From positions 1-34,345 of IMG/VR virus record IMGVR_UViG_3300037104_000348: a stretch of 34,345 nt of DNA; one strand, written 5' to 3'. The notes below the pieces were generated by a model. That model was not told the DNA's origin and did not search any database. It saw only the letters and a list, made by a program, of their open reading frames with translations. Below are positions 1 through 34,345 of the stretch, in pieces. Both the position numbers and the translations under genes were made by a program. Source of the stretch: a virus. Position 1 is the stretch's first letter. Every line of letters begins with the position of its first letter.

Positions 1-127
1 CGACAACGGACTACTGAGATTGATCATCGAGTTAGTAAATTATTAAAAGAACTTGAGCTGCTAAAGCATCCAGCTAAGAAAACTATTGCTGATCTTAATG
101 CTAAAGATGGATCAGAGCCTTGTGTTA
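1..127. repeat. Left copy of the 127-bp terminal direct repeat
   Basis: The first 127 bases are identical to the last 127 (34219-34345). A single reading frame (33817 through the join to 471) continues without interruption when the copies are merged. This shows the sequence closes into a 34,218-bp circle. The exact 127-base length matches a common assembler k-mer, so it is best read as an assembly overlap of a circular or circularly permuted genome. Confidence 0.95.
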
Positions 128-8241: not shown

Positions 8242-10329
8242 ATGTCGACAAAAATGGTACGTCAAACGATGTTTACCACTGGCGAAGTGGATATCGTTAC
8301 ATGGAAAAGAACGGATGACGAGCACTATTTAACCGCTGCTCAGAGCTTACTAAACTGCGAAGTAGGTACCACAGGTCTTGCGAAAAAACGCAAAGGTACT
8401 TCGCTTTTAATGAATGTTACACCCTATGCCCAATTCAATTCGAGGATGTATGAGTTTGTGGATAAGGACGGCAACTATTATGTTGTCTTATCGGCAAATG
8501 GTGTCTTCTATATATTAAATGCGCCAGGTGATCAAGCGTATGTTATAACGAGTCGTGGTACGTTTGTAGTCACGAGTGATGGCTCCAATGTTGTGGTTGC
8601 CGCAGACAATTTAAGCTTCTTGCAAGCTGTACCTACACCTTATTTAACAGGGGATTTAGGCAACATTGATTACACGCAAGATAATGATAGCCTTATTATC
8701 ACTAACCCTAATTATCCACCTGGTAGGATATATATCAGCTCTTACAATGGTATTAATCCGCCTACATTCGCTTTTCAATATTTAAATATATTCCCATTAC
8801 CAGCCTACGATTTTAATAACATTAATTACAATGCTTATACGGTTGTATTGAGTGTTAGCCCAACCAATGTGCTGACATTCCAATTCACAGGTGTGGGCGC
8901 GAACCCTGGTTATACAACGGCCTGGATTGGCGGCGAAATCATCGGTGGTGGCGCGTCTGAGATTGACCCTGTAGGTTATGCTATCATTACTAATGTGAGC
9001 TATAGCGCAGCCGGTGGGGGCACTGTGACCTTTACAGGGAACGTGCAGATAGCTTTTCAAACGACCAACTATGCGACTCAAGGTTCACAATATTCTGTGC
9101 GTCAACCAGCTTGGAGTGCAGCCCTTGGTTATCCGGCGAAAGTCCTATTCTTCCAAAACAGATTATGGCTCGCTAACACGAAGGCGCTTAACAATACAGT
9201 ATTTGGATCAAAAATTAACTCACCTATTAATTTTGATGTTGGTACGGGCAGAGATACTGATGCCATTGTTTATACCATTGGCCAGACAAATAGTGGTGGC
9301 ATACTTTGGTTGAATGGCGGCAAACAGATGGAAATATTCTGTCAAAACTTTGAGTTTGCGTGCCCGCAAGATCAAAACTCGGCGTTGACACCAAGTACTT
9401 TCTCGATTAGACAGCAATCATCGTATGGTGCATCACCGCTTTTGAAACCGGTAACTTATATCAATGACTCTTATTACTCTACGAAGAGTGGCTCAGCTCT
9501 TATTAACTTCCATTACAATGGGATAGGGTTGACATATACCTCAAGCAATATATCGGTAGCAAGTTCTCATTTGGTGAAAGCTCCAACGAATCGAGCTTTG
9601 TTAAGAGGAACAGATACTTCCCAGGATAACTTCATCTATTTCATTAACCCGACTGATGACACATTGACTGCATTTCAATTTGCCGCAGAATTTAAATTGG
9701 CTGCTTTAACGCCAATCGTTTTTGAAAATGATGTTGAATTGGTTGATATTGTTACCATAAATAATTCAGTTTATATCTTAAAGTTCTACGTGAAGACTGA
9801 TCAGTACACCATTGAATTATTAGACAATACTTCTCGTATTGATTGTAATTTCAACGCTTCAATGCAGGCTAACGGCTTAGTAACGGGGTTAAACTTATTA
9901 AATGGCTACACGGTGCAAGTGGTCTATCAAAATCAGGACTTCGGGCAATATTTGGTAGTTAACAATCAAATTACTGTTAATAATCCTGATGAAATCGTCG
10001 ATACCGTTATGATTGGGTTGCTATATGATGTCGAAATCAAGCCGATGTACTTCTTTGATGCGCCCGCAGCTTCTCCTTTTAAGAAGCAAGTGACGCGTAT
10101 TTATGTGGATTATTACAACTCGATTGATTTTTCTATCAATGGTAATCTAGTTCCATATCAGAACTTTCCATTATTTGATGGAAAACCACTTGTTCCACAG
10201 ACTGATACTGCAATAGTCGCACCGTTTTCAGGATGGAATCGGTTTGAGACATTGTCAATTACACAGACGTCACCGTTTGATTTACAAATATTAAGTATTG
10301 GCTATCAAGTATCATCGGCCGTGATATAG
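8242..10329 (+). CDS. Tail tubular protein B / tail nozzle (T7 gp12-like)
   Basis: A 695-aa beta-rich protein after the gp11-like gene. The N-terminus (MVRQTMFTTGEVDIVTWKR) and the run LNCEVGTTGLAKKRKGTSLL match the start of T7 gp12-type nozzle proteins, where the segment follows a 'tG.l.....' pattern. Length is near T7 gp12 (about 790 aa). It should build the hexameric tail tip. The 14-base gap to the previous gene and 9-base gap to the next indicate one operon. Confidence 0.88.
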   Translation: MSTKMVRQTMFTTGEVDIVTWKRTDDEHYLTAAQSLLNCEVGTTGLAKKRKGTSLLMNVTPYAQFNSRMYEFVDKDGNYYVVLSANGVFYILNAPGDQAYVITSRGTFVVTSDGSNVVVAADNLSFLQAVPTPYLTGDLGNIDYTQDNDSLIITNPNYPPGRIYISSYNGINPPTFAFQYLNIFPLPAYDFNNINYNAYTVVLSVSPTNVLTFQFTGVGANPGYTTAWIGGEIIGGGASEIDPVGYAIITNVSYSAAGGGTVTFTGNVQIAFQTTNYATQGSQYSVRQPAWSAALGYPAKVLFFQNRLWLANTKALNNTVFGSKINSPINFDVGTGRDTDAIVYTIGQTNSGGILWLNGGKQMEIFCQNFEFACPQDQNSALTPSTFSIRQQSSYGASPLLKPVTYINDSYYSTKSGSALINFHYNGIGLTYTSSNISVASSHLVKAPTNRALLRGTDTSQDNFIYFINPTDDTLTAFQFAAEFKLAALTPIVFENDVELVDIVTINNSVYILKFYVKTDQYTIELLDNTSRIDCNFNASMQANGLVTGLNLLNGYTVQVVYQNQDFGQYLVVNNQITVNNPDEIVDTVMIGLLYDVEIKPMYFFDAPAASPFKKQVTRIYVDYYNSIDFSINGNLVPYQNFPLFDGKPLVPQTDTAIVAPFSGWNRFETLSITQTSPFDLQILSIGYQVSSAVI

Positions 10330-18706: not shown

Positions 18707-20176
18707 TTGAATAAGATTCTAAAGGAAATTAGAACTAAGGCCACGGATTTGGCCAGCAGTTTAACGGCATTAGTCGCTTCGCGCTATGTCACATGGCGCG
18801 ATAAAGATGCAAATCTCATTATTAAATTTGAAGACGGGGAAGTTATTCAGCTTCCCTATATCCCATTTAGAACCTATCAAATTGAAGCTGCTGTTAAAAT
18901 TTTCATAGAGAAGATAGTTCGACTTTTATTATCAAGACCTAGACGTTCTGGTAAGGAAGTTGAATCATGGAATATGATTATTGAGGGAGCGGTTGAGTCG
19001 CCAGGTCTTTATATGATGGTTTATCCTACAAATGTCCGTGCGAAAGCGGTGCTTTGGGATGGAGCTATATTAATGCCGGACGGTCATAGCGTTAAATTTT
19101 TGCATATGATTCCTAAACGATTATTGCAAGGTATTAATAACCAGGAAATGAAAATTAAACTGGTGAATGGCTCAGTTATTTGGGTGGTTGGTTCCGATAT
19201 TGATCCTGATAAGCTGCGCGGAACCAATCCGCGCGGCATAGTTTACTCCGAGTTTGCGTTCCAAGACCCTAGGGTTTTTTATGTAATGTTGCCAGCTCTA
19301 CGTCAAAACGGGGGCTGGTTAATTGGTCAGTCAACATTTGACGGAATGAATCACTTCTATCAATTAATTGAAAACAACAAGGATGATCCGCTCTGGTATT
19401 GTCGAGTGGACAGTATTACTAACCTTGTCGATGAGAACGGTGACCGTTATATCACAGATGAGATGATTGAGGAAGATCGGCGTGCTGGAATGCCTGAATA
19501 TTTAATTCAGCAAGAGTATTATGGCATCGTTCAGATTAACCAAGAGACAAAATATTTTGCTCATGCGATTAAAAATATTTATGAGACCAATCGAATTATT
19601 CCAGAGCTTATTATTCCTCAAGCGAATGTTTACTCAGCATTTGATATTGGTATAAACGATTGCACCGCTATTATTCTGTTTCAAGTTAAAAGAATAGATA
19701 ACTTTTTAAAGCCCGTGGTTATTGCCTATTTTGAAAATAACAATCGTGATCTTGCGTTCTATGTGATGGAAATCCGCCGCATGTGTGCCCGTTATAATTT
19801 ACCATTTAAAGATCATTTTCTGCCTCATGATGGTCAAAAAAGAGACTTTAATACAGGGAAAAATACAGTTGATTTCATGCGAGAGATGAATGAGAGTGCA
19901 TTTATTGTACCGAGACCAAGCAGCAAGGAAAATGCTATTGAGGCAATGCGCCGTCGACTCTATATCTGTGACTTCAACAAAGAAAATACTCAGCGCTTGA
20001 TCGATTGTCTTTCTAACTATAGCAAAGAGTTTGATGATAAAATGGGTACGTATAAGAACCGACCAGTTCATAACTGGGCATCGCATGGAGTAGACGCATT
20101 CCAAACGATGACGTTAGCCCTAGATGGGGATATGATAACGGATGGAACTTTTTATAATGTAGTTTATGTCAATTAA
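18707..20176 (+). CDS. terL: Large terminase subunit (DNA packaging ATPase/nuclease)
   Basis: A 489-aa protein, TTG start with GAGGA upstream. ATPase: Walker A-like RPRRSGKE at residues 77-84 (Lys followed by Glu instead of the usual Ser/Thr), Walker B GIVYSE at 177-182 with E182 as catalytic carboxylate, and a coupling-type IGQST at 206-210. Nuclease: FDIG (D313), PHDG (D375) and NWASHGVDAFQ (D463), matching the three-acid RNase H-like centre of TerL. The position after fibre genes is that of T7 gp19. The small subunit is encoded elsewhere (32604-33083). Confidence 0.95.
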   Translation: MNKILKEIRTKATDLASSLTALVASRYVTWRDKDANLIIKFEDGEVIQLPYIPFRTYQIEAAVKIFIEKIVRLLLSRPRRSGKEVESWNMIIEGAVESPGLYMMVYPTNVRAKAVLWDGAILMPDGHSVKFLHMIPKRLLQGINNQEMKIKLVNGSVIWVVGSDIDPDKLRGTNPRGIVYSEFAFQDPRVFYVMLPALRQNGGWLIGQSTFDGMNHFYQLIENNKDDPLWYCRVDSITNLVDENGDRYITDEMIEEDRRAGMPEYLIQQEYYGIVQINQETKYFAHAIKNIYETNRIIPELIIPQANVYSAFDIGINDCTAIILFQVKRIDNFLKPVVIAYFENNNRDLAFYVMEIRRMCARYNLPFKDHFLPHDGQKRDFNTGKNTVDFMREMNESAFIVPRPSSKENAIEAMRRRLYICDFNKENTQRLIDCLSNYSKEFDDKMGTYKNRPVHNWASHGVDAFQTMTLALDGDMITDGTFYNVVYVN

Positions 20177-20686: not shown

Positions 20687-22210
20687 ATGGCTAACGAACG
20701 GTTATACCAATTTCCCTCAAAAGCATCACCAACACCAGCAGATATTATTTTTTGCGGTAATGCGGCTGATGCTTTCAATGAAGTTAATATTACAATTGCA
20801 GCTTTAATTGCGGCTTATCCCAATTTATTTGCAATTGGCAATTTAACTCTCGGTGCCAATACTTATATTTATTCAAATAATTCTTCAGTAATAGGTACAG
20901 GAACGATTACAGCATTAGGTGTTTCGTTGTTATCGGGTGCGACTGTAGCAGCAATGCAAACAACTTTAGGTTATACAGCAACAGCAACAGCTTCTTTATT
21001 TGCAGGTTGGGATGCAAATAAAAATTTATCTGCTAATAATCTTATTCCAGGATATGCAACAACTGTAACAGCCGCAGGAACAACAACTTTAACTGTAGCA
21101 AGTGCAGGACAGCAATATTTTACTGGTTCAAGTAATCAAACTATTGTAATGCCAGTTGCTAGTACAGTTGTGTTAGGTCAATATTGGACATTTGTAAATC
21201 TTTCTACTGGTACACTTACAATTCAATCTTCGGGTGCCAATACTATTACAACCATTGGTGCAAATTCATCAGCGACAGTTACTTGTATTTTAGCATCAGG
21301 TACAACGGCTGCTTCTTGGAGTGCTGAAACTCCAGTGGCAGGAGCAGGTGTTGTAAATTCAGGTACTATAAATAATTTAGCTTATTATGCTGCAACAGGT
21401 TCAGCGGTAAGTGCACTTGGAACTGCTAATAACGGCGTACTTGTTACAAGCAATACTGGAGTTCCATCTATTTTAGCAGGACCCGGGTCAGCGGGATTAA
21501 CATTATTGTCTCAAGCAGCTGCTGCGCCTATTTGGTCAACGGGTAAGCCTATCACTCGAGTAATTGTTCAAACTTTCACTGCAACTGGAGCTGGAACTTA
21601 TACGCCTACTTCTGGAATGACTTATTGTGTAGTAAAAGCAGTTGGTCCAGGTGGTGGAACGGGTGGGGCAACAGGTGCCTCTGGTCAAGGTGATGTGAGT
21701 TCTGGGGCTGGAGCAGGTGGTTATGCAGAACAAGTATTTACTGCGGCAACAATTGGCGCATCCCAAGCAGTATTTATTGGAACTGGCGGAACTGCTGGTA
21801 CAGCAACAGGAAATGGCGGTAATGGATCAGCAGCAACGACATTTGGTGCACTTTTAACTGCTAATCCAGGTGCCGGTACGATTAGAAATGGTAGTATTGC
21901 TGTTACAACCGGATCACCAGGAGGAGCAGGGGGAACAGCTACTGGAGGTTATTTAAATATAACTGGTTCTACAGGTGGATCTTGTTTCTATTTCCCTGCT
22001 GGTGTAGGTGTGGTTGCCGGTGTTGGTGGCGCTAGTCCTTTAGGATTTGGAGGCGGTGGTTCTTTTATAAATTCTAGTCAGGCAGGTATTGCTCCAACTG
22101 GATTTGGAGCAGGTGCAGGGGGAGCTGGTTCTTGTAATGGAACGGGTGGCGTAGTAGGTGCTGCTGGTGGTAATGGGTTTATTGAAGTAACAGAATATAT
22201 TAGCATCTAA
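20687..22210 (+). CDS. Glycine-rich tail adhesin / second receptor-binding protein
   Basis: A 507-aa protein. The N-terminus (LYQFPSKASPTPADIIFCGN) looks like the attachment segment of certain tail fibres; the middle is Thr/Ala/Ser-rich and beta-like. Residues from about 315 to the end are dominated by glycine runs (VGPGGGTGGATGASGQGD, LGFGGGGSF, FGAGAGGAGSCNGTGG) and end GNGFIEVTEYISI. This is the pattern of glycine-rich adhesins that form bundles of polyglycine-II helices with variable receptor-binding loops. It is the last late gene before a terminator. Base use appears more AT-rich than the head genes, hinting at exchange. Confidence 0.8.
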   Translation: MANERLYQFPSKASPTPADIIFCGNAADAFNEVNITIAALIAAYPNLFAIGNLTLGANTYIYSNNSSVIGTGTITALGVSLLSGATVAAMQTTLGYTATATASLFAGWDANKNLSANNLIPGYATTVTAAGTTTLTVASAGQQYFTGSSNQTIVMPVASTVVLGQYWTFVNLSTGTLTIQSSGANTITTIGANSSATVTCILASGTTAASWSAETPVAGAGVVNSGTINNLAYYAATGSAVSALGTANNGVLVTSNTGVPSILAGPGSAGLTLLSQAAAAPIWSTGKPITRVIVQTFTATGAGTYTPTSGMTYCVVKAVGPGGGTGGATGASGQGDVSSGAGAGGYAEQVFTAATIGASQAVFIGTGGTAGTATGNGGNGSAATTFGALLTANPGAGTIRNGSIAVTTGSPGGAGGTATGGYLNITGSTGGSCFYFPAGVGVVAGVGGASPLGFGGGGSFINSSQAGIAPTGFGAGAGGAGSCNGTGGVVGAAGGNGFIEVTEYISI

Positions 22211-22243: not shown

Positions 22244-22333
22244 TTAATAACGAATTGCTATATAAAATAAAATAAATAATGGAATCAGAGAAAGCATCAT
22301 AAAGCCTAATACGATTAAGGCTACTATTTCCAT
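22244..22333 (-). CDS. 29-aa single-pass membrane peptide
   Basis: The ATG (22333) overlaps the stop of the secreted-protein gene in a TAATG arrangement, the tightest form of translational coupling. The product, MEIVALIVLGFMMLSLIPLF followed by ILFYIAIRY, is almost entirely one hydrophobic helix with an acidic N-terminus and a basic C-terminus. It is the last gene of the leftward operon. Function unknown; partner of the secreted protein, or a small envelope-targeting peptide, are possible. Confidence 0.6.
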   Translation of the reverse strand: MEIVALIVLGFMMLSLIPLFILFYIAIRY

Positions 22334-22743
22334 TATCCGTGTACTTTTAATTTATCATTAATAACATGCTTAAAACTGCATTCACCTTCAATTGTAGAAG
22401 AAATTTTTACATCTACTATCTGACCTTTATTCGTGAAATTAACATATGTATAGAGATTTTCTTTCATCGAATAACTTTTTCCAGGTTTAATAATTTGATG
22501 GGTGCATTGTTCATTTACGAAATTTTGTTTACCGAAGAGAGAAGTATAGTTACATAATTTATAACTTTGAACGCTTGGAGTGTTATTGATAATGTAATAA
22601 GCATGAGCACTTCTAAAATAAACTTCTTTATTTACTTGAAGCGCGGCTTTTTGATCTTCGGGTAACATAGAAGCTACGTTACATACAGCATGAGCATTAA
22701 GGGCGATAAGAGTTAAAGCTATACCCGTTATTTTTTTATACAT
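22333..22743 (-). CDS. Exported four-cysteine protein (periplasmic or outer-membrane, unknown role)
   Basis: A 136-aa protein with a classical Sec signal peptide: MYKK, hydrophobic core ITGIALTLIALN, and an AHA cleavage site after residue 19. The mature part has four cysteines (21, 64, 80, 122), enough for two disulfides, and alternating strands such as AYYIINNTPSVQSYKLC and LYTYVNFTNKGQIVDVKI, suggesting a small beta-sandwich. RBS AAGGAAGCC upstream. An exported protein at the end of an early operon is typical of a superinfection-exclusion or lysogenic-conversion 'moron'; this role is inference. Confidence 0.75.
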   Translation of the reverse strand: MYKKITGIALTLIALNAHAVCNVASMLPEDQKAALQVNKEVYFRSAHAYYIINNTPSVQSYKLCNYTSLFGKQNFVNEQCTHQIIKPGKSYSMKENLYTYVNFTNKGQIVDVKISSTIEGECSFKHVINDKLKVHG

Positions 22744-22746
22744 GAA

Positions 22747-22767
22747 GGCTTCCTTAATTTAGAAGCC
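22747..22767 (-). promoter_or_regulatory. Hairpin over the ribosome site of the exported-protein gene
   Basis: GGCTTC/GAAGCC inverted repeat (22747-22752 with 22762-22767), 9-base loop. On the minus strand the Shine-Dalgarno AAGGA lies at the loop/3'-arm boundary, four bases from the ATG at 22743 side of the stem. It could tune translation; no T-run is present, so it is not a terminator. Confidence 0.4.
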
Positions 22768-22786
22768 CCGCATGATAACAGCATAA

Positions 22787-22942
22787 TTATTTTTTTGAAG
22801 CTTTCTTTTTCTTTTTTCCGCGAGCTTCAGAGTATGCAATAGCTACAGCTTGCTTTTGAGGTTTTCCCGCTTCCATTTCACGCTTAATGTTTTCAGAAAA
22901 TCCTTTTTTAGTTTTGGCTTTTTTGCCTTTAACTAATGGCAT
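22787..22942 (-). CDS. Basic 51-aa phage protein (DUF6496-like)
   Basis: MPLVKGKKAKTKKGFSENIK followed by REMEAGKPQKQAVAIAYSEAR and a Lys tail. The segment 'E...GKP.KQAVAIA.SEAR' is characteristic of small basic phage proteins related to DUF6496. RBS GGAGAG lies five bases upstream of the ATG. Very high lysine content suggests nucleic-acid contact, but the function of the family is unknown. Confidence 0.75.
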   Translation of the reverse strand: MPLVKGKKAKTKKGFSENIKREMEAGKPQKQAVAIAYSEARGKKKKKASKK

Positions 22943-23154
22943 ATTTCTCTCCTTGAAAAAAAGGTGGCGCGGTTGTCGTTAAGACTGCAAACTGTGTCAT
23001 TAGTGATGAGATGTTCGCCCGCTGCCGTTAACTGGAGGGAGGATGTAGGCACTTTTATCGGATGATTCAAATATCGTTCCTAGGTTGATATCATGACGCC
23101 ACCGACGAAGAATTAAGGACTCCTCCAAAACCTGCTACACCGCCCCATAAACTT
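22943..23154. other. 212-bp stretch without a convincing gene
   Basis: Between two leftward small genes. It holds only very short ORFs. One minus-strand frame (23150-23091) reads like protein (WGGVAGFGGVL) but has no start codon. No tRNA-like fold, promoter or terminator is clear. Part of it may be a decayed small gene. Confidence 0.4.
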
Positions 23155-23322
23155 TTATGTTACATCCCATTCATGCTTGGGATCATCTACAAACCACGTG
23201 CCTAGACTCTGTGGCAAACGGCTTCCATTGACTCGACACACAAGCCAGCCTCCTGGTACCAGCATTCGCTCTGTGATATCGGTTGAGGTCTTTTCTATGA
23301 CTTCCCACACTGGTATTGCCAT
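23155..23322 (-). CDS. Small 55-aa phage protein
   Basis: MAIPVWEVIEKTSTDITERM and LVPGGWLVCRVNGSRLPQSL, ending FVDDPKHEWDVT. The ATG is preceded by AGAGGTAAG. The 'VPGGWLVR.....' then 'FVpDP.H.W' pattern resembles a common small phage protein of unknown function. Most of it lies inside the C-terminal coding region of the upstream zinc-protein frame (23183-23428), in a different frame. Confidence 0.65.
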   Translation of the reverse strand: MAIPVWEVIEKTSTDITERMLVPGGWLVCRVNGSRLPQSLGTWFVDDPKHEWDVT

Positions 23323-23428
23323 GTCTTACCTCTTTTAATTCGCACGGTCTTACACAATTGTGGCAAACATAATATGAATAGTCATTATTTTCAATATAAA
23401 CTTCCGTGGAACAACATCGTGAAACCAT
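23183..23428 (-). CDS. Zinc-ribbon-like small protein with out-of-frame overlap
   Basis: I choose ATG 23428, which has AGGGAGG seven bases upstream; an earlier in-frame ATG (23467) lacks a site. The first 34 residues carry a zinc-ribbon-like pattern, CC at 5-6 and CHNCVRPC at 22-29. After about residue 36 the frame runs into the start of the 55-aa gene and its sequence becomes Arg/His-rich and unlike a folded protein. The original gene probably ended near there and has lost its stop, so only the N-terminal part is likely functional. Confidence 0.55.
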   Translation of the reverse strand: MVSRCCSTEVYIENNDYSYYVCHNCVRPCELKEVRHGNTSVGSHRKDLNRYHRANAGTRRLACVSSQWKPFATESRHVVCR

Positions 23429-23476
23429 TTGCGCCTCCCTGCAAGCCGCACAGTTTAGCGCAAACATTAGTCAATA

Positions 23477-23899
23477 TCAATCGAATGGTGGGATATCGTC
23501 ATCAACAAAAGCAGGTTCTTCTGGCTCTACAACTTCAGGTTTTAAGAAGTCTTTAACGAAAGCCTCGATCTCTCCGGTTTCTTTATTGACGCGGTGATCC
23601 ATCTCAAGATAGCCTTCTTTTCCGTCACATTCTTGCGCCATGAGATTACCCTCGTCGATCTTCTCTGGCATACCAGTTGCTTTACAAAAATGTTCAAACT
23701 GCCAAAACATACTTGGAATTAGAACAATCGTTGAAAAGAAATTAAATGCTCTGTGATTACTGCGTTCTAGCCTCATTTTAAAGATAAACATATCATTACC
23801 ACTAGCTGAAGTCTTTTCACGGGTATGTAACACCGTGAAATGATATTGGCCTTTAGATGGCAATGCGTCTTCTTTCATTTGTTTAGCATTAAATTGCAT
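23477..23899 (-). CDS. Single-stranded DNA-binding protein (DUF669/SSB-like)
   Basis: A 140-aa protein with an OB-fold-like N-terminal region (KGQYHFTVLHTREKTSASGN; MFIFKMRLE), a FEHFCKATGMPEKI segment typical of DUF669-type phage proteins, and an acidic C-terminal tail ending DDDIPPFD, which mimics the SSB tail used to recruit partners. It would coat ssDNA for annealing by the RecT-like protein encoded directly upstream. Start overlaps the RecT-like stop by one base. Good confidence on role; the exact family is by eye. Confidence 0.8.
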   Translation of the reverse strand: MQFNAKQMKEDALPSKGQYHFTVLHTREKTSASGNDMFIFKMRLERSNHRAFNFFSTIVLIPSMFWQFEHFCKATGMPEKIDEGNLMAQECDGKEGYLEMDHRVNKETGEIEAFVKDFLKPEVVEPEEPAFVDDDIPPFD

Positions 23900-24741
23900 T
23901 ATTTACTCTCCCTTGATTTTAAATGACTCGTCCATTTATCAATCTGCTCATCGGTTAAGCCTTCAAATGCCTGTACACCAAATTTCTTAAGCGTAATGGT
24001 TATACTAGCTTTCGTGACCTTCCGACTTTCGATCAATTCTTTCAATTCAACTAAATTTTCTTTCTCAGGCTGTGCGTCTTCTACAACCACCGCTTCACAA
24101 TCAATTATGTTTGCGTCTTCTGCTATGCCTAGAGACTCTTCAAGCCCCTGCATTCCCTTGTTCTTTGGTCTAGGCATTGGTACGACCGTTGAAGTTTCAA
24201 CGATGCCTTCGACTTCATCCTGAGACATTAAACCGAATAGTGCATCAGGGAAAGCGTCTTTTGCAGCAAATCCACGTGCTCTATGCTGTAGCATTCTCTT
24301 CGGATATTGTTGCCACACACCTTTCTTAGCCCATAATCCCGCAAGCTTCGCATCTTCCATGCTGAACTTTTGAGTGACAGGTGATTTGCCTTTTCTCATC
24401 ATTGTGCAATACGCGGTTAAATCTCTTGTCTCAATGCTGCCCTCGAACCATTCTTTCATATCTTCAAAGTGAGGATTGCGCTTGATAAGAGCAAGTAAAC
24501 CGTCCCCATATGCAAATGGCATTCCATTAATGCAGCCCAGTGTACGAAGGGCTTGCATCTTTTCTAGTCCTAATTCCTTACCCATTTGCCAAACGATTAA
24601 AATATCGTTTGGTCGGCCTCGGTAACCTTCAGGACATAAACCACTATTCGCAAAAATAGTGGCGTACTCTTGAGCTTCTTTTAATGTGGTTGGTACAAAA
24701 TTAAATTGTGTTGTAACTAATTCTTGTCTTTGTGTAGCCAT
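23899..24741 (-). CDS. RecT-family single-strand annealing protein
   Basis: A 280-aa protein with conserved SSAP features: CPEGYRGRPNDILIVWQMGK, GLEKMQALRTLGCINGMPF, then YGDGLLALI, and the run QQYPKRMLQHRARGFAAKDA. These match the RecT-type recombinases next to phage YqaJ exonucleases. It promotes annealing of complementary single strands. It is flanked by the SSB-like and exonuclease genes, forming a complete two-component recombination cassette in the leftward operon. The C-terminal 80 residues are variable. Confidence 0.85.
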   Translation of the reverse strand: MATQRQELVTTQFNFVPTTLKEAQEYATIFANSGLCPEGYRGRPNDILIVWQMGKELGLEKMQALRTLGCINGMPFAYGDGLLALIKRNPHFEDMKEWFEGSIETRDLTAYCTMMRKGKSPVTQKFSMEDAKLAGLWAKKGVWQQYPKRMLQHRARGFAAKDAFPDALFGLMSQDEVEGIVETSTVVPMPRPKNKGMQGLEESLGIAEDANIIDCEAVVVEDAQPEKENLVELKELIESRKVTKASITITLKKFGVQAFEGLTDEQIDKWTSHLKSRESK

Positions 24742-24752
24742 GATAATTCCCC

Positions 24753-25586
24753 TTATTTAATTCTTAATGAACGCACGCCATTTTTGTTTGCTTGAAAAGT
24801 TGCAATAACTTTGCCGTCTTCGGTGATACCGTCTTTGTCAGCAATGAATTGAATAATTTCTTTTTCAGCGCTTTCTATATCCTTTGACATACTCTTTATG
24901 TCGCTTTTTATGTTGGTTATAAAAGCAATGGTTTCTTTAATAGAAGGTTGCACATCAATAAAGCTGCCATTATTAAGTGGGTACATTAATTTTAAATCGC
25001 CTCTCGTACTCGGAGGCGGTGGAATGTCAGCTAGTACATGGTCAAGCCAGAATCTTTCGCAAGAGTCCTCGATCTTTTGAATGACCTTATCATTACGAGG
25101 TGTTGGAAATATTCTGTAATCATCAATATCAATCAGAGCTGCAATATCGGCTTCTTCATAACCCGTACAAGCCATTTGATGCTGCACTTGTAATATATAA
25201 TGAATCGGAGCCTCATCACTGCCGCTCAAGCCCCATGCTGCACGCATGAAGCCAGTGGAGCTTTTGCACTCAACGATTCTGCGCTGGCCGATGATCACGC
25301 GATCAAGGTTGCATAACATAAATGGAAATTTCTTATGGAACACAGTTTGATTGACGCGCTTTAATTTAACGCCACGTTGAAATGCATATTCTCTCGCAAT
25401 CGTTTCTTCGTGAGCGTGACGTAATCTTAAGCGGTCTTCGCTTAAAATTGCGATATCTTGTTGACGACCTGTCTTTTGCAACCACAACTCATAAGGAGTT
25501 TTATAAGGGCTTAATCCCATTACTGCTGCACAATCAGTTGCGCCTAAGCCTTTTTTACGAATTTCTTGTTGTTCTATTGATAACAT
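24753..25586 (-). CDS. YqaJ-type viral recombinase exonuclease
   Basis: A 277-aa nuclease. I set the start at ATG 25586 (AAAAGGT upstream, overlapping the stop of the 27-aa gene) rather than an upstream extension through another gene. Motifs: GLGATDCAAVMGLSPYKTPY at the N-terminus, HEETIAREY (E60), NLDRVI (D95), IVECKSS with E106 and K108, and YILQVQHQM (Q133-Q137). This is the lambda-exonuclease/YqaJ PD-(D/E)XK centre. It degrades the 5' strand at double-strand ends to make 3' tails for the RecT-like protein. Confidence 0.92.
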   Translation of the reverse strand: MLSIEQQEIRKKGLGATDCAAVMGLSPYKTPYELWLQKTGRQQDIAILSEDRLRLRHAHEETIAREYAFQRGVKLKRVNQTVFHKKFPFMLCNLDRVIIGQRRIVECKSSTGFMRAAWGLSGSDEAPIHYILQVQHQMACTGYEEADIAALIDIDDYRIFPTPRNDKVIQKIEDSCERFWLDHVLADIPPPPSTRGDLKLMYPLNNGSFIDVQPSIKETIAFITNIKSDIKSMSKDIESAEKEIIQFIADKDGITEDGKVIATFQANKNGVRSLRIK

Positions 25587-25669
25587 TACTTGATACCTTT
25601 TATAAAATATTTTAGATTTTGTATTAATGTGAAATGTGTACGTTCGTAAGCTGAAATAAAATCTTTCAT
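25586..25669 (-). CDS. 27-aa peptide gene fitted between two overlapping neighbours
   Basis: MKDFISAYERTHFTLIQNLK followed by YFIKGIK. Its ATG overlaps the upstream stop (ATGA at 25669-25666) and its stop overlaps the exonuclease ATG (TAATG at 25588-25584). A TGGAG lies about 9 bases before the ATG. Exact coupling on both sides is hard to explain by chance. It could be a real micropeptide or a device that carries ribosomes into the exonuclease gene. Confidence 0.6.
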   Translation of the reverse strand: MKDFISAYERTHFTLIQNLKYFIKGIK

Positions 25670-26154
25670 GCGTGACGACTCCAGTAAATTTCATCATTGT
25701 CATTGTGGTGATAAGCTGAATAACCCGCGTCATTCATTTCTGAAACGAATATGTCGTTGCAGTGCTCATCAAGTAATGACTCCATACGTTTAGCGTATAT
25801 TTTTATTGTGTTGTTTCTAATGAGGGTGGCTAAATCTTCTCTATTATCTTTTGAATCATTTTTTAATAGATTGAATAAAGCACAAGTAATGTTGTCATCA
25901 ACTGCATATTTATCGTCTTCGTGAAAGCAATCGGTAGTGTCGCGATCATCACACTCTAATAGTAGAGCTGCGAACTCGCCTTGCTCATCGTCGTCAAGAT
26001 CATCAATTGATAGGTAGTAGCCGTCTGATTTGCGCTTGGCTTTGTCTAGGATTAAATCGTCAATATAACTATTAAGTCTTTGTAGATGTGTCATGGTTAA
26101 ATTCCTTTTAACCGGTTGTAGAAGCATCATGCTTGAGTTTTCATTGTAGATCAT
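25666..26154 (-). CDS. First gene of the leftward operon, acidic protein of unknown function
   Basis: A 162-aa Asp/Glu-rich protein. I place the start at ATG 26154 because GAGGAAAAC precedes it and the promoter -10 lies at 26192-26197; the upstream open frame (to 26223) would overlap the -35. An internal ATG at 26094 with AAAGGAAT is an alternative start (142 aa). Segments such as DGYYLSIDDLDDDEQGEFAA and EEHCNDIF-like C-terminus give no known domain. As first early gene it might be a regulatory or takeover protein. Confidence 0.7.
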   Translation of the reverse strand: MIYNENSSMMLLQPVKRNLTMTHLQRLNSYIDDLILDKAKRKSDGYYLSIDDLDDDEQGEFAALLLECDDRDTTDCFHEDDKYAVDDNITCALFNLLKNDSKDNREDLATLIRNNTIKIYAKRMESLLDEHCNDIFVSEMNDAGYSAYHHNDNDEIYWSRHA

Positions 26155-26191
26155 ATTGTTTTCCTCATCACTAATAAGATTAAGAGGAATC

Positions 26192-26220
26192 AATTTACCA
26201 CCAATGGTGGTAGCTGTCAA
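26192..26220 (-). promoter_or_regulatory. Leftward early promoter
   Basis: Minus-strand TTGACA (26220-26215) and TAAATT (26197-26192) with exactly 17 bases between. An inverted repeat occupies the spacer and -10, so a bound repressor would block it. It drives the recombination operon. Confidence 0.75.
26196..26212. promoter_or_regulatory. Operator-like inverted repeat 1 (within the leftward promoter)
   Basis: TACCACC-AAT-GGTGGTA, perfect 7-bp arms, between the -35 and -10 of the leftward promoter. Likely target of the XRE protein encoded at 26304 or of its neighbour. Confidence 0.65.
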
Positions 26221-26233
26221 CACTACTGGTGTT
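26219..26233. promoter_or_regulatory. Operator-like inverted repeat 2 (between the divergent promoters)
   Basis: AACAC-TACTG-GTGTT, arms of 5 bp, abutting the -35 of the leftward promoter. It shares ACACTAC with the site inside the rightward promoter. Confidence 0.5.
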
Positions 26234-26303: not shown

Positions 26304-26498
26304 ATGGAATTATCTGAAAAAATTAAATTAATAAGAAAAACACTAAGAATGTCTCAAAAGGAGTTTGCGAGTGAAATTAACTGTTCTCAATCTATTATTT
26401 CTGCTTATGAATTAGGAATAAAAAAACCTTCTTATGATATTTTGATAGTGTTAGGGGTTTTAATTAAAAAATATAAAATAAAGGTTTCACTTTTATGA
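26304..26498 (+). CDS. Small XRE-family transcription regulator (Cro/CI-type)
   Basis: A 64-aa protein that is just a helix-turn-helix domain: IRKTLRMSQKEFASEINCSQ with ISAYELGIKKPSYDIL is the canonical XRE pattern (Q18-KEF, recognition helix SIISAYE). It ends LIKKYKIKVSLL. No dimerisation or cleavage domain follows, so it is Cro-like in size. Being expressed from one of two divergent promoters with operator-like repeats, it probably controls both. The stop overlaps the next ATG. Confidence 0.85.
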   Translation: MELSEKIKLIRKTLRMSQKEFASEINCSQSIISAYELGIKKPSYDILIVLGVLIKKYKIKVSLL

Positions 26499-27562: not shown

Positions 27563-27822
27563 AAACATTTTGGATGTCATTTTGTGATAGTGACTTACCA
27601 GTAGGCGAGCAGTTTTTAGGTGTGACCATTGTTGATGCTCATTCGGCTGAAGACGCTATTGTTAAGAGTCATTGCATTAATACTAATCCAGGTGGACAGA
27701 TACAGATACAGGATATTACGCAATTTAGAGGTGATATTAATCCAGATTATAAAAATCGTTTGCTGACACGTGAAGAATGCGAATGTGATGCTTACCTTCT
27801 AAAAAATAAAGCCCGTCATTAA
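27559..27822 (+). CDS. Small conserved-looking phage protein, unknown function
   Basis: An 87-aa product, MKTFWMSFCDSDLPVGEQFL then GVTIVDAHSAEDAIVKSHCI. The pattern 'F.G..ivdA.s..dAi...h' with 'NPGGQIQIQDI' is seen in small phage proteins of unknown function. Last gene of the rightward regulator operon; its final codons are part of the terminator stem at 27808-27830. Confidence 0.7.
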   Translation: MKTFWMSFCDSDLPVGEQFLGVTIVDAHSAEDAIVKSHCINTNPGGQIQIQDITQFRGDINPDYKNRLLTREECECDAYLLKNKARH

Positions 27823-27830
27823 CGGGCTTT
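27808..27830. terminator. Terminator between convergent small genes
   Basis: AAAGCCCGT/ACGGGCTTT, 9-bp stem (27808-27816 with 27822-27830), loop CATTA. On the minus strand it is followed by ATTTTTT, making a strong terminator for the Lys-rich gene; on the plus strand the tail is weaker. The core GCCCGTTAA..CGGGC is shared with the terminator at 22218. Confidence 0.8.
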
Positions 27831-27834
27831 ATGG

Positions 27835-27972
27835 CTACTTTTTCATAGCCTTTTTCATCATTTTTTTGTCTTTTTTCACTTCTTCCTTTTTCATCTTTTT
27901 TACTTCAGCCTTTTTAGCAGGCTTAGCGCCTTTTTTCATTTCTTTCATTACTTCCTTAGCTTTTTTCTTCAT
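27835..27972 (-). CDS. 45-aa lysine-rich peptide
   Basis: MKKKAKEVMKEMKKGAKPAK, KAEVKKMKKEEVKKDKKMMK, KAMKK: 22 of 45 residues are Lys and 7 are Met, with few other residue types. AAGGAT lies 8 bases before the ATG, and a strong minus-strand terminator follows at once, so it is a self-contained gene. A nucleic-acid-condensing or decoy role is conceivable. Function unknown. Confidence 0.65.
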   Translation of the reverse strand: MKKKAKEVMKEMKKGAKPAKKAEVKKMKKEEVKKDKKMMKKAMKK

Positions 27973-28233
27973 GTGCGCACATCCTTATCAATTGATTGAA
28001 GTGCTAATGATAGCGCGGTTTAGATCAATTTACTAACAGGGTTATACACTGAATTTGGGGATAACTTTAAACTTATCTGATTGTACTGGAAGAAAAAAAG
28101 AGTAATATTGCTGAAGGAATGAAGGGAAGCTAGTTACTTCCCTACATGGGATAAATCCGTTTATCGTGACAGAGCAATTTTAAATGGTTGGTACAAAAAA
28201 GCAACCTTTAATATGTGCTTTGTAGGGAGATAC
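27973..28233. other. 261-bp intergenic region before the initiator gene
   Basis: No ORF above 14 codons with a start. It contains a near-match DnaA box TTATACACT (28042-28050), a nearby GGGATAAC, and a hairpin AGGGAAG/CTTCCCT (28123-28129 with 28137-28143, loop 7) without a T-run. Weak promoter candidates occur on both strands, e.g. plus TTGAAG then TTTAGA at about 28000-28027. It probably holds the initiator promoter and leader. Confidence 0.5.
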
Positions 28234-29079
28234 ATGCAAGAGAAAGCTATTCACATTGTTTTCCAAGTTATGAACTATATTTTCGGTGAAACCCTCACTG
28301 ACCACCTGTTACTTCCAGTTGACCGGTTACTACTACTTGCGCTCGCAAAGCACCATGGTGTGAAAGGAATTTATCCATCCACCAAAACACTCGCTAAAGA
28401 ATTACGAATCTCAAAAACCTACGTCAAGCTGCGCATTAATTATCTAGAATCAATTAAATTGATAAGAATTGACCGAAAATACGGCTGTTCTCATTCCTAT
28501 TTTCTCGAATTTTTATCCACAGACCGAGCAACTACAGTTGACCAGTCAAGTACAGTTGACCGGTCAACTGTAGTTACCCCAACCGGTCAACTACAGTTGC
28601 AGGACCGGTCAACTACAGTTGACCCAATCAATATTAATAATCAGCAAAGATTAAATAATACAGAGAGGCGCAAAAAAGCTGCGCTCACTCTCTCTGATGA
28701 CTTCGTCCCTTCCAAGCAAAGCGTCAAGAAGGCTGAAGAGGTAGGTTTGACCGAAGACGAGGCTAACTATGAATTTGATAAATTTATGAACCACTACCAA
28801 GAAAAACAGGTTGAGAAGACCGATTGGCAATTCATGCTACAAACCTGGTTTATACGAGCCGGTGACTACAAACGAAAGAAAGGCCCTATTACCGTAAATT
28901 CACAGGAAGTGAAGAGCACAGTGCCTTGGTACAACCCAGCGGATGCTCAACGAGGCCCCGCTGCAATTGGAAATCTTTTAAACGGACTTGCTAAACAAGC
29001 AAGCGAGCACTTAAACAAGCAAGGAATCAAAACCAATGGATTGGGACGCGAAGAAGAGGGAGAGGGAACGGTTAATTGA
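28234..29079 (+). CDS. Lambda O-like replication initiator
   Basis: A 281-aa protein; start at ATG 28234 with TAGGGAG upstream, rather than 28213. Residues 28-95 form a winged helix-turn-helix (RLLLLALAKHHGVKGIYPST, KTLAKELRISKTYVKLRINY, LESIKLIRI), as in phage O-type initiators. Residues 97-131 are a low-complexity linker of TTVD/STVD/STTVD repeats produced because iterons occupy this part of the gene. The C-terminal part (EANYEFDKFMNHYQEKQ; WQFMLQTWF) resembles the helicase-contact region of DnaT/O-type proteins. Binding to its own internal iterons is the obvious model. Function inferred from organisation; confidence good. Confidence 0.85.
   Translation: MQEKAIHIVFQVMNYIFGETLTDHLLLPVDRLLLLALAKHHGVKGIYPSTKTLAKELRISKTYVKLRINYLESIKLIRIDRKYGCSHSYFLEFLSTDRATTVDQSSTVDRSTVVTPTGQLQLQDRSTTVDPININNQQRLNNTERRKKAALTLSDDFVPSKQSVKKAEEVGLTEDEANYEFDKFMNHYQEKQVEKTDWQFMLQTWFIRAGDYKRKKGPITVNSQEVKSTVPWYNPADAQRGPAAIGNLLNGLAKQASEHLNKQGIKTNGLGREEEGEGTVN
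28513..28665 (+). other. Replication origin inside the initiator gene
   Basis: In order: a perfect DnaA box TTATCCACA (28513-28521), five 18-bp iterons (28526-28624), and an AT-rich tract (about 28627-28665, e.g. ATCAATATTAATAAT). This is the order and placement of lambda-type origins, where O binds iterons in its own gene and melts the adjacent AT-rich DNA. Additional half-iteron CAGTTGACC at about 28316-28324. Confidence 0.8.
28526..28624 (+). repeat. Five 18-bp iterons
   Basis: Consensus GGTCAACTACAGTTGACC, itself a perfect 8-bp inverted repeat around AC. Copies begin at 28526, 28544, 28562 (centre GT, i.e. inverted), 28585 and 28607 (perfect). Spacing is 18, 18, 23 and 22 bases. Copies 2 and 3 join into a 22-bp perfect palindrome at 28551-28572. 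Confidence 0.9.
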
Positions 29080-29296
29080 GGAAGAGAGACAACGCTTTCT
29101 TGCTATGAGTGAAGCAGAGGCAATGACCATGTCAAACTCAGACCGGTATCAACGTATGAGATATCAGCGTGAGATTGAGGCTGCGGAATGGTTGAAGGAA
29201 GTGCGGCGTAAACTGCCCGCTGTCCAGCCAGAGGAGAATCGATACAAGAAACGAAGGAGCACAGGTAGTATAAAATACAATTCATATCAGGATTGA
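29036..29296 (+). CDS. Charged helical protein overlapping the initiator
   Basis: An 86-aa protein with ATG 29036 inside the 3' end of the initiator gene (44-base overlap). It is almost all Arg, Lys, Glu and Gln (WDAKKRERERLIEEERQRF; YQRMRYQREIEAAEWLKEV), predicted to be one long helix. The place directly after an O-type gene is where helicase loaders (lambda P-like) lie, but it is much too small and has no motif; a cofactor role is speculation. Confidence 0.65.
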   Translation: MDWDAKKRERERLIEEERQRFLAMSEAEAMTMSNSDRYQRMRYQREIEAAEWLKEVRRKLPAVQPEENRYKKRRSTGSIKYNSYQD

Positions 29297-30233: not shown

Positions 30234-30800
30234 ATGGCAGAATTTGAGAAAGCGATTGCATTTGTGTTGCCTAATGAAGGTGGCTTTGTTGACAATCCGA
30301 ATGATTCTGGAGGGGCAACCAATTTCGGTTTGTCCCTTCGCTTTTTAAGAACACTACCAGTCGAATCATTACGTAAATATGGGGTCTTTGTGACCCCAGA
30401 AGATTTAAGCGTGGAAAACGTGAAAGAATTAACACTCGACCAAGCTAGAAATATTTACAAGAGTGAGTTTTGGGATCACCATCTCTATGAAAAAATTGTT
30501 GATCAGCATGTAGCAAATTATGTTTTTGATATGGTTATTCATCATGGCGAACATCAAGCTATTAAAATATTGCAACGTGCTTTATGGGCTGTTTATCAAC
30601 ATATTCATGTAGTGGTTGATGATGGAATTTTAGGTAGTAAAACACTTGACTTGATAGATGATCCAGCATGCTTTGCTATGAATGCTTTGATCGTTGCTAT
30701 GATGGCCGAACGCGCTGGATTTGTGCGTTTACTCGCGAATGAACGCTCCAAGGATAAGGAGTTTTTAGATGGGTGGCTTAATCGATGTTATCGAATCTAG
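30234..30800 (+). CDS. Endolysin, glycoside hydrolase 108 family
   Basis: A 188-aa muramidase; ATG 30234 chosen over a TTG 18 bases earlier. FVLPNEGGFVDNPNDSGGAT then NFGLS is the GH108 signature, with E15 as catalytic acid. The rest (KSEFWDHHLYEKI; YVFDMVIHHGEHQAIKILQR; DDGILGSKT) corresponds to the C-terminal peptidoglycan-binding domain of ZliS-type lysins. No signal peptide, so release depends on the holin gene that overlaps its 3' end by 32 bases. Confidence 0.93.
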   Translation: MAEFEKAIAFVLPNEGGFVDNPNDSGGATNFGLSLRFLRTLPVESLRKYGVFVTPEDLSVENVKELTLDQARNIYKSEFWDHHLYEKIVDQHVANYVFDMVIHHGEHQAIKILQRALWAVYQHIHVVVDDGILGSKTLDLIDDPACFAMNALIVAMMAERAGFVRLLANERSKDKEFLDGWLNRCYRI

Positions 30801-32571: not shown

Positions 32572-32603
32572 TTGAGTGAGTAAATGCAAAGGAATTGCAG
32601 ATA

Positions 32604-33083
32604 ATGGAATTAAAACCACAAGTAGGAAGACCGCTAACGCTGTCTCAAGATGTGAAGGATAGAATCTTTGAGGCTATCCCATTAGCTTTTAGACCGACGA
32701 CAATTGCGCATTATGCGAAGGTTCATCCGAATAATTTAAAACGTTGGTTGAAGCTTGGCTATGATGATGCAGAACAAGGTTTAAGCACAGAATATGCACA
32801 ATTTTGGGCGGAATTTAACCATAGAGTGGCTCATAAGGTTACTAATTGGCTTAAGGATGTTGAAGACCGTAAGCAGAATTGGCAGGCAACATGGGAGCTA
32901 GTCAAGAGTGTTGCGCGTGATGATTACGGCGTTGAAGCAGTTGAGTATAAAGAATTGCTTGAATTATTTAATAGTTTGAGCGAAGCTTTCAAGCGGTTCA
33001 CTGAGAACCCATTGCAAGGAGCAGTGCAAAATGGCCGAGAAATGGATATCGAGCGCGATCAAGAAGCCGGGAGCACTCCGTAA
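32604..33083 (+). CDS. terS: Small terminase subunit
   Basis: A 159-aa protein; ATG 32604 chosen (AAAGGAA upstream) over a TTG nine bases before. Residues 15-60 form a helix-turn-helix (DRIFEAIPLAFRPTTIAHYA; KVHPNNLKRWLKLGYDDAEQ), then the characteristic AQFWAEFNHRVAHKVTNWLK and WELVKSVARDDYGVEAVEYK helices for oligomerisation. This is the pattern of podovirus small terminases, which bind the packaging site and regulate TerL. The subunits are about 20 kb apart on the linear map, with TerS first and TerL near the end of the same operon. Confidence 0.85.
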   Translation: MELKPQVGRPLTLSQDVKDRIFEAIPLAFRPTTIAHYAKVHPNNLKRWLKLGYDDAEQGLSTEYAQFWAEFNHRVAHKVTNWLKDVEDRKQNWQATWELVKSVARDDYGVEAVEYKELLELFNSLSEAFKRFTENPLQGAVQNGREMDIERDQEAGSTP

Positions 33084-33820: not shown

Positions 33821-34345
33821 GCGAATATACTATTTGTGGTCACTGCAACGAACGTGTGAAAGTTAGAGGGTTAGTGCTAGCTAAGCATGGTTGTAAGATA
33901 GTTCAAAGCTTGAAGAAAAGTTTTAATGAAGCATTACGTGCCATTCAACACGAAACAGATAGACAGTTGGCAAAGCTTCATTTGTTATTAACCAAGCAAG
34001 ATGTAAAGATTGGTACATTTACCACCGTTATCAATGGTAGAGATGAACACTTTCGACAACGTATTGATACACTTGAAAAACATGGTCAATCTTTGTATGA
34101 CCTGAATAAAAAGCAAGATGCATCAATCGCTAAATCATTAGTTGATATCTATAAAATAAAAGAACGCTTATCTCCAATAGAATCTACATTTGTAACATTA
34201 GATCAATTTGGTGCATGGCGACAACGGACTACTGAGATTGATCATCGAGTTAGTAAATTATTAAAAGAACTTGAGCTGCTAAAGCATCCAGCTAAGAAAA
34301 CTATTGCTGATCTTAATGCTAAAGATGGATCAGAGCCTTGTGTTA
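33817..34345 (+). CDS. Coiled-coil protein with N-terminal zinc-finger-like region (5' part, crosses the genome join)
   Basis: Starts at GTG 33817, overlapping the previous stop (GTGA), and continues through the join to 471, giving 290 aa. The N-terminus SEYTICGHCNERVKVRGLVL then AKHGC has cysteines and histidines spaced like a small zinc finger (C..C...........H..C). Long charged helices follow (QHETDRQLAKLHLLLTKQD; DTLEKHGQSLYDLNKKQD). No known family. It is likely to be a late protein of assembly or a DNA-contacting factor, but I cannot choose. Confidence 0.8.
   Translation, partial: MSEYTICGHCNERVKVRGLVLAKHGCKIVQSLKKSFNEALRAIQHETDRQLAKLHLLLTKQDVKIGTFTTVINGRDEHFRQRIDTLEKHGQSLYDLNKKQDASIAKSLVDIYKIKERLSPIESTFVTLDQFGAWRQRTTEIDHRVSKLLKELELLKHPAKKTIADLNAKDGSEPCV
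34219..34345. repeat. Right copy of the 127-bp terminal direct repeat
   Basis: Identical to bases 1-127. Merging the copies makes the coding frame that starts at 33817 continuous and gives a closed molecule of 34,218 bp. Confidence 0.95.

Follow-up and report, generated by a model that had tools for sequence, protein, structure and literature searches.

A probable lambda-O-type replication origin nested in the initiator gene of an uncultivated podovirus

The window discussed here is the whole 34,345-nucleotide stretch of DNA filed as IMGVR_UViG_3300037104_000348, which comes from an uncultivated podovirus. Within it, a replication initiator gene carries five copies of an 18-bp repeat (iterons) in the DNA that encodes the linker of its own protein, and an AT-rich tract follows. 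The best explanation of this arrangement, and one that we consider very likely, is a replication origin of the lambda O type nested in the initiator gene. The original prediction had read the array in the same way, and that reading is supported by the conservation of the sites in a related contig (IMGVR_UViG_3300015203_000020, 34.6 kb, hereafter L005), by a test of codon choice, and by direct comparison with lambda. We infer from the sequence that the array is the origin of this genome. A podovirus with T7-like virion genes, in which no replication machinery of its own was recognised, thereby gains a probable origin and initiator, and GGTCAACT-NN-AGTTGACC joins the iteron specificities of origins nested in initiator genes as a new one. 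The gene and its array consist of the following features:

28234 to 29079, plus strand: replication initiator gene (281 amino acids), with a winged helix, an iteron-encoded linker and a weakly DnaT-like C-terminus
28526 to 28543, plus strand: iteron 1, GAGCAACTACAGTTGACC, two mismatches
28544 to 28561, plus strand: iteron 2, AGTCAAGTACAGTTGACC, two mismatches
28562 to 28579, minus strand: iteron 3, inverted, reading GGTCAACTGTAGTTACCC on the plus strand, two mismatches
28585 to 28602, plus strand: iteron 4, GGTCAACTACAGTTGCAG, three mismatches, in a reading frame that differs from that of the other four iterons
28607 to 28624, plus strand: iteron 5, GGTCAACTACAGTTGACC, perfect and the only exact copy of the 18-bp unit
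28551 to 28572, no strand: perfect 22-bp palindrome, TACAGTTGACCGGTCAACTGTA, at the junction of iterons 2 and 3

All five units were found where they had been predicted, and the palindrome is exact. Each iteron is two-fold symmetric, as had also been proposed, with 5 to 8 of the 8 arm pairs matched per copy, and the whole array sits within the initiator's own reading frame. There is no second such array in the genome, where every other position has at least five mismatches to the 18-bp unit, and no other family of short-range direct repeats in the window exceeds two copies. In a first-order Markov control, 60 simulated 3-kb pieces held at most two copies, compared to the five observed. Since the array is intragenic, synonymous codon choice is a sharper null than Markov sequence. 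Random synonymous recoding of the linker (n = 5000) gave 31.4 +/- 3.3 mismatches in total, with a minimum of 21, against 9 in the window; when scored on the palindrome with a free centre, the window again has 9 mismatches and the recodings have at least 19.

On this evidence, selection keeps the DNA and not the peptide, since recoding never approaches the array and one copy lies in another frame. The opposite case would be a linker selected as a peptide, with the DNA repeats as a by-product. The TTVD/STVD repeats that had been described in the linker do occur in copies 1, 2, and 5, so that three copies encode the same tetrapeptide, but copy 3 reads STVVTP and copy 4 reads TGQLQLQ. Copy 4 and one of the L005 copies hold the DNA pattern in another frame and so yield other peptides, and the pattern is lost upon synonymous recoding, leaving selection on the peptide with almost no chance of being the explanation. 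The combination of reading frame and recoding tells DNA-level from protein-level selection and could help to locate similarly nested origins in further phages. Strong hairpins form when the array is folded as a single strand (z -7.2), but they were discounted as a sign of a structured-strand function because inverted repeats yield hairpins anyway.

The same sites recur in L005. Its linker DNA holds four of them (AGTCAACTGCAGTTGACC, GGTCAACTGCAGTTGCGC, GGTCAACTGCAGTAGACC, and GGTCAACCCCAGTTGACA), with the arms as in the window and GC at the centre, and one of the four is in another frame. Here, too, with scoring on the palindrome with a free centre, the observed mismatches (7) lie below the minimum reached by synonymous recoding (16). 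L005 was retrieved with a two-site DNA pattern, and later protein scans returned that contig only. Having been found by its sites, it is expected to have them, but its homologous initiator gene (46% identity over 134 amino acids) and the homologues of neighboring genes are independent of the search. Common to both are the initiator, a gene of 86 or 87 amino acids, a nuclease, the gene at 30769, the terminase small subunit, and a weak helix-turn-helix (HTH) match. L005 differs from the window in that its initiator has no DnaT match, no DnaA box lies beside the sites, and the sites number four rather than five. A helix in the HTH region is nearly identical in the two initiators (TYVKLRINYL in the window, TYIKMRINIL in L005) and differs in phages with other repeats; this likeness is suggestive of a helix that reads the sites.

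Neither viral nor genome contigs yielded a relative when scanned with the initiator protein itself, a scan of genome contigs with a single site gave scattered single matches among the matches listed, and a prophage search covering 143 genomes of one order and 369 of one class turned up a single distant relative (L140), with weak repeats only. Two contigs, L004 and L125, were rejected as relatives because the pattern matches there fall outside any O-like gene.

In lambda, dimers of the O protein bind inverted-repeat iterons inside the O gene and open an adjacent 40-bp A+T region, after which P delivers the host DnaB (PMC5043065; see also PMC7466680). The annotated lambda iterons are 18 bp long, lie in the middle of O, and fall in frames 0, 2, 2, and 1 of that gene. 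Window and lambda have in common an initiator gene whose central part holds two-fold symmetric iterons of 18 bp, which are read in several frames and directly followed by an unstable A+T tract. The window differs from lambda in having five sites instead of four, an iteron sequence that is unrelated, no Phage_rep_O match, no recognised P gene downstream, and a C-terminus that is DnaT-like and not of the O type.

Next to the array are an AT-rich tract and a DnaA box, both of which the original prediction had counted as parts of the origin:

28626 to 28665, no strand: AT-rich tract, candidate unwinding element, by nearest-neighbour stability within the weakest 0.85% of the genome's 40-mers
28513 to 28521, plus strand: exact DnaA-box sequence, TTATCCACA, probably incidental

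The tract is real and directly adjoins the array; it was picked as the weakest of 70 overlapping 40-mers beside the array, and the matching stretch of lambda is among the weakest 0.16% of a 5.5-kb piece. The DnaA-box sequence is present as described, but it is not conserved beside the L005 array, and a second exact copy lies on the minus strand at 8457 to 8465, with 0.4 expected per genome. It was ruled out as a working part for these reasons and is probably incidental. Ori-lambda, moreover, is not defined by a DnaA box.

The initiator itself belongs with phage replication proteins. The longest open reading frame (ORF) for it opens at 28213, but the start is probably at 28234, given the preceding GGGAG and the register shared with L005. 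The protein matches HTH_36 (4.8e-7). Its best matches among PHROG families are to replication initiation proteins, led by phrog_1032 (2.2e-9), with the best stretch falling on the winged helix (residues 36 to 89); phrog_270 (3.9e-8) is matched as well. The name O-like, used in the original prediction, fits where PHROG and HTH_36 families are concerned but not in Pfam Phage_rep_O (PF04492), which the window initiator does not match and which lambda O matches at 5.7e-36. The C-terminus scores 18.1 bits against DnaT (PF17948), under the curated cut-off of 25, and a six-frame search for DnaT gave no match. This weakly DnaT-like stretch resembles the C-termini of Salmonella and Vibrio phage initiators. 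A comparison of the initiator with PDB sequences gave nothing credible.

Those phages offer the nearest layouts. The HTH_36 and DnaT-like initiator of Salmonella phage S107 also has phrog_1032 as its best PHROG family, a winged helix, a weak DnaT C-terminus, and tandem repeats within the gene, in the linker, at a spacing of 21 to 24 bp. However, the repeat sequence differs, and S107, unlike the window, has a primase/helicase gene after its initiator gene. The O-like initiators of Vibrio phages X29 and XM1 likewise have repeats within the gene (23-bp spacing) and a similar C-terminus, but the repeats are of unrelated sequence and the next gene codes for a DnaC-like loader (X29) or an ATP-binding protein (XM1). 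The layout is one that is known from lambda and is also seen in S107, X29, and XM1; what is new is the sequence of the iterons and the combination of genes.

Iterons and a circular genome could also belong to a phage-plasmid, in which the repeats would serve RepA-like copy control or partition as a plasmid-type replicon or centromere. The first and last 127 bp of the window (1 to 127 and 34219 to 34345) are identical direct repeats, which makes it probable that the window is a complete circular assembly of about 34.2 kb; no integrase was recognised in it. Being 127 bp long, the repeat is more suggestive of a k-mer overlap from assembly than of a genuine terminal repeat. Against a plasmid-type element, the initiator had no match in a plasmid collection and no partition gene was recognised in the window. 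The sites are also two-fold symmetric with one inverted copy, and the initiator matches phage O-like families, neither of which fits a RepA-type plasmid origin. We regard this alternative as highly improbable.

Another use for such sites would be as an operator, at which the initiator or some other repressor binds the dyads and controls transcription through or of the initiator gene, while replication starts elsewhere. The 18-bp dyads are operator-like, and HTH regulators are encoded at 26304 and 26495. However, the sites lie about 290 to 390 bp into the gene with no promoter-like matches nearby, the protein encoded there matches replication initiators and not repressors, the placement beside an AT tract mirrors lambda, and the same type of initiator accompanies the sites in L005. 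An operator in place of an origin is thus very unlikely, although control by O binding in lambda leaves room for an added regulatory role of the sites.

For the lambda-O-type origin, the working model is as follows. The winged-helix N-terminus would bind the five two-fold symmetric iterons, one dimer per site, in the very DNA that codes for the linker of the protein. The resulting complex would open the adjacent tract at 28626 to 28665, and the C-terminus, alone or with the 86-amino-acid neighbor, would recruit the host DnaB helicase, leading to theta replication. Dimer binding, unwinding of the tract, and theta replication are carried over from lambda by analogy. Dependence on host DnaB is proposed because the window ORFs that were scanned include no recognised polymerase, primase, helicase, or loader; host machinery is presumed to be used, and host DnaB presumably recruited.

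Several findings weigh against a lambda-O-type origin. The sole relative with the same sites is L005, which was itself retrieved by those sites, and its AT tract is ordinary, with 15.6% of L005 40-mers as weak or weaker. No helicase loader of the P or DnaC-like kind was recognised beside the initiator, where the conserved gene of 86 amino acids is found instead. The AlphaFold model of the initiator (two sequences) has a predicted local distance difference test (pLDDT) score of 39 and is unusable. The GC-skew switch that had been expected near 28.5 kb is absent as well. The detrended cumulative skew has its extremes at 22203 and 26283, near the edges of the minus-strand gene block; it tracks gene strand and is hence uninformative about the origin, neither for nor against it.

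Downstream of the initiator lie two conserved genes:

29036 to 29296, plus strand: conserved gene of 86 amino acids, candidate helicase adapter, overlapping the end of the initiator gene and 41% identical to a gene of 87 amino acids in the same place in L005
29293 to 29760, plus strand: VRR-NUC nuclease gene, conserved neighbor (PF08774, 9.1e-12), in the same place in L005 and L128

The 86-amino-acid protein has no family match. It would be a better candidate for an adapter than the DnaT-like tail, since the tail is absent from L005 and the neighbor is conserved. In L128, a contig of another uncultivated phage that was reached through the nuclease and not through the repeats, the linker of an O-like gene (1449 to 2204) holds two different tandem repeats of 22 bp, in two frames; after this gene come a gene of 90 amino acids, a VRR-NUC gene, and a cluster of small genes resembling that of the window.

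The virion genes of the window include those for the portal (PF12236), the capsid (PF19821), tail proteins, and virion structural proteins, which backs the earlier assignment to a podovirus whose virion genes are T7-like. Nothing in L005 matches the window tail protein, yet L005 shares the initiator and its neighbors, so the initiator module seems, from these sequences, to be shuffled between virion types. One could go further and suppose that no P- or DnaC-type loader is needed: the initiator would load the host helicase by its DnaT-like tail, with or without the 86-amino-acid neighbor, and in this way the initiator with its iterons, the small adapter, and the nuclease would form a compact module that moves between unrelated virion types. 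This extension is tentative, and we think it unlikely.

Other parts of the window were noted in passing. Upstream of the initiator, an ORF of 45 amino acids on the minus strand (27835 to 27972) is rich in Lys and Ala and resembles a basic DNA-binding peptide. A strong hairpin between T-runs (27806 to 27832) is terminator-like and separates the early genes from the initiator. The leftward block on the minus strand (22333 to 26223) includes a RecE-like exonuclease, a RecT-like annealing protein, and a DUF669/SSB-like gene. The terminase large subunit family is matched at 18707 to 20176 on the plus strand (1.9e-6), with the small subunit match distant from it, at 32595 to 33083. Near the start of the window, a plus-strand gene (894 to 1076) encodes a protein of 60 amino acids that matches a Lar-like restriction-alleviation family (phrog_599, 4.8e-10).
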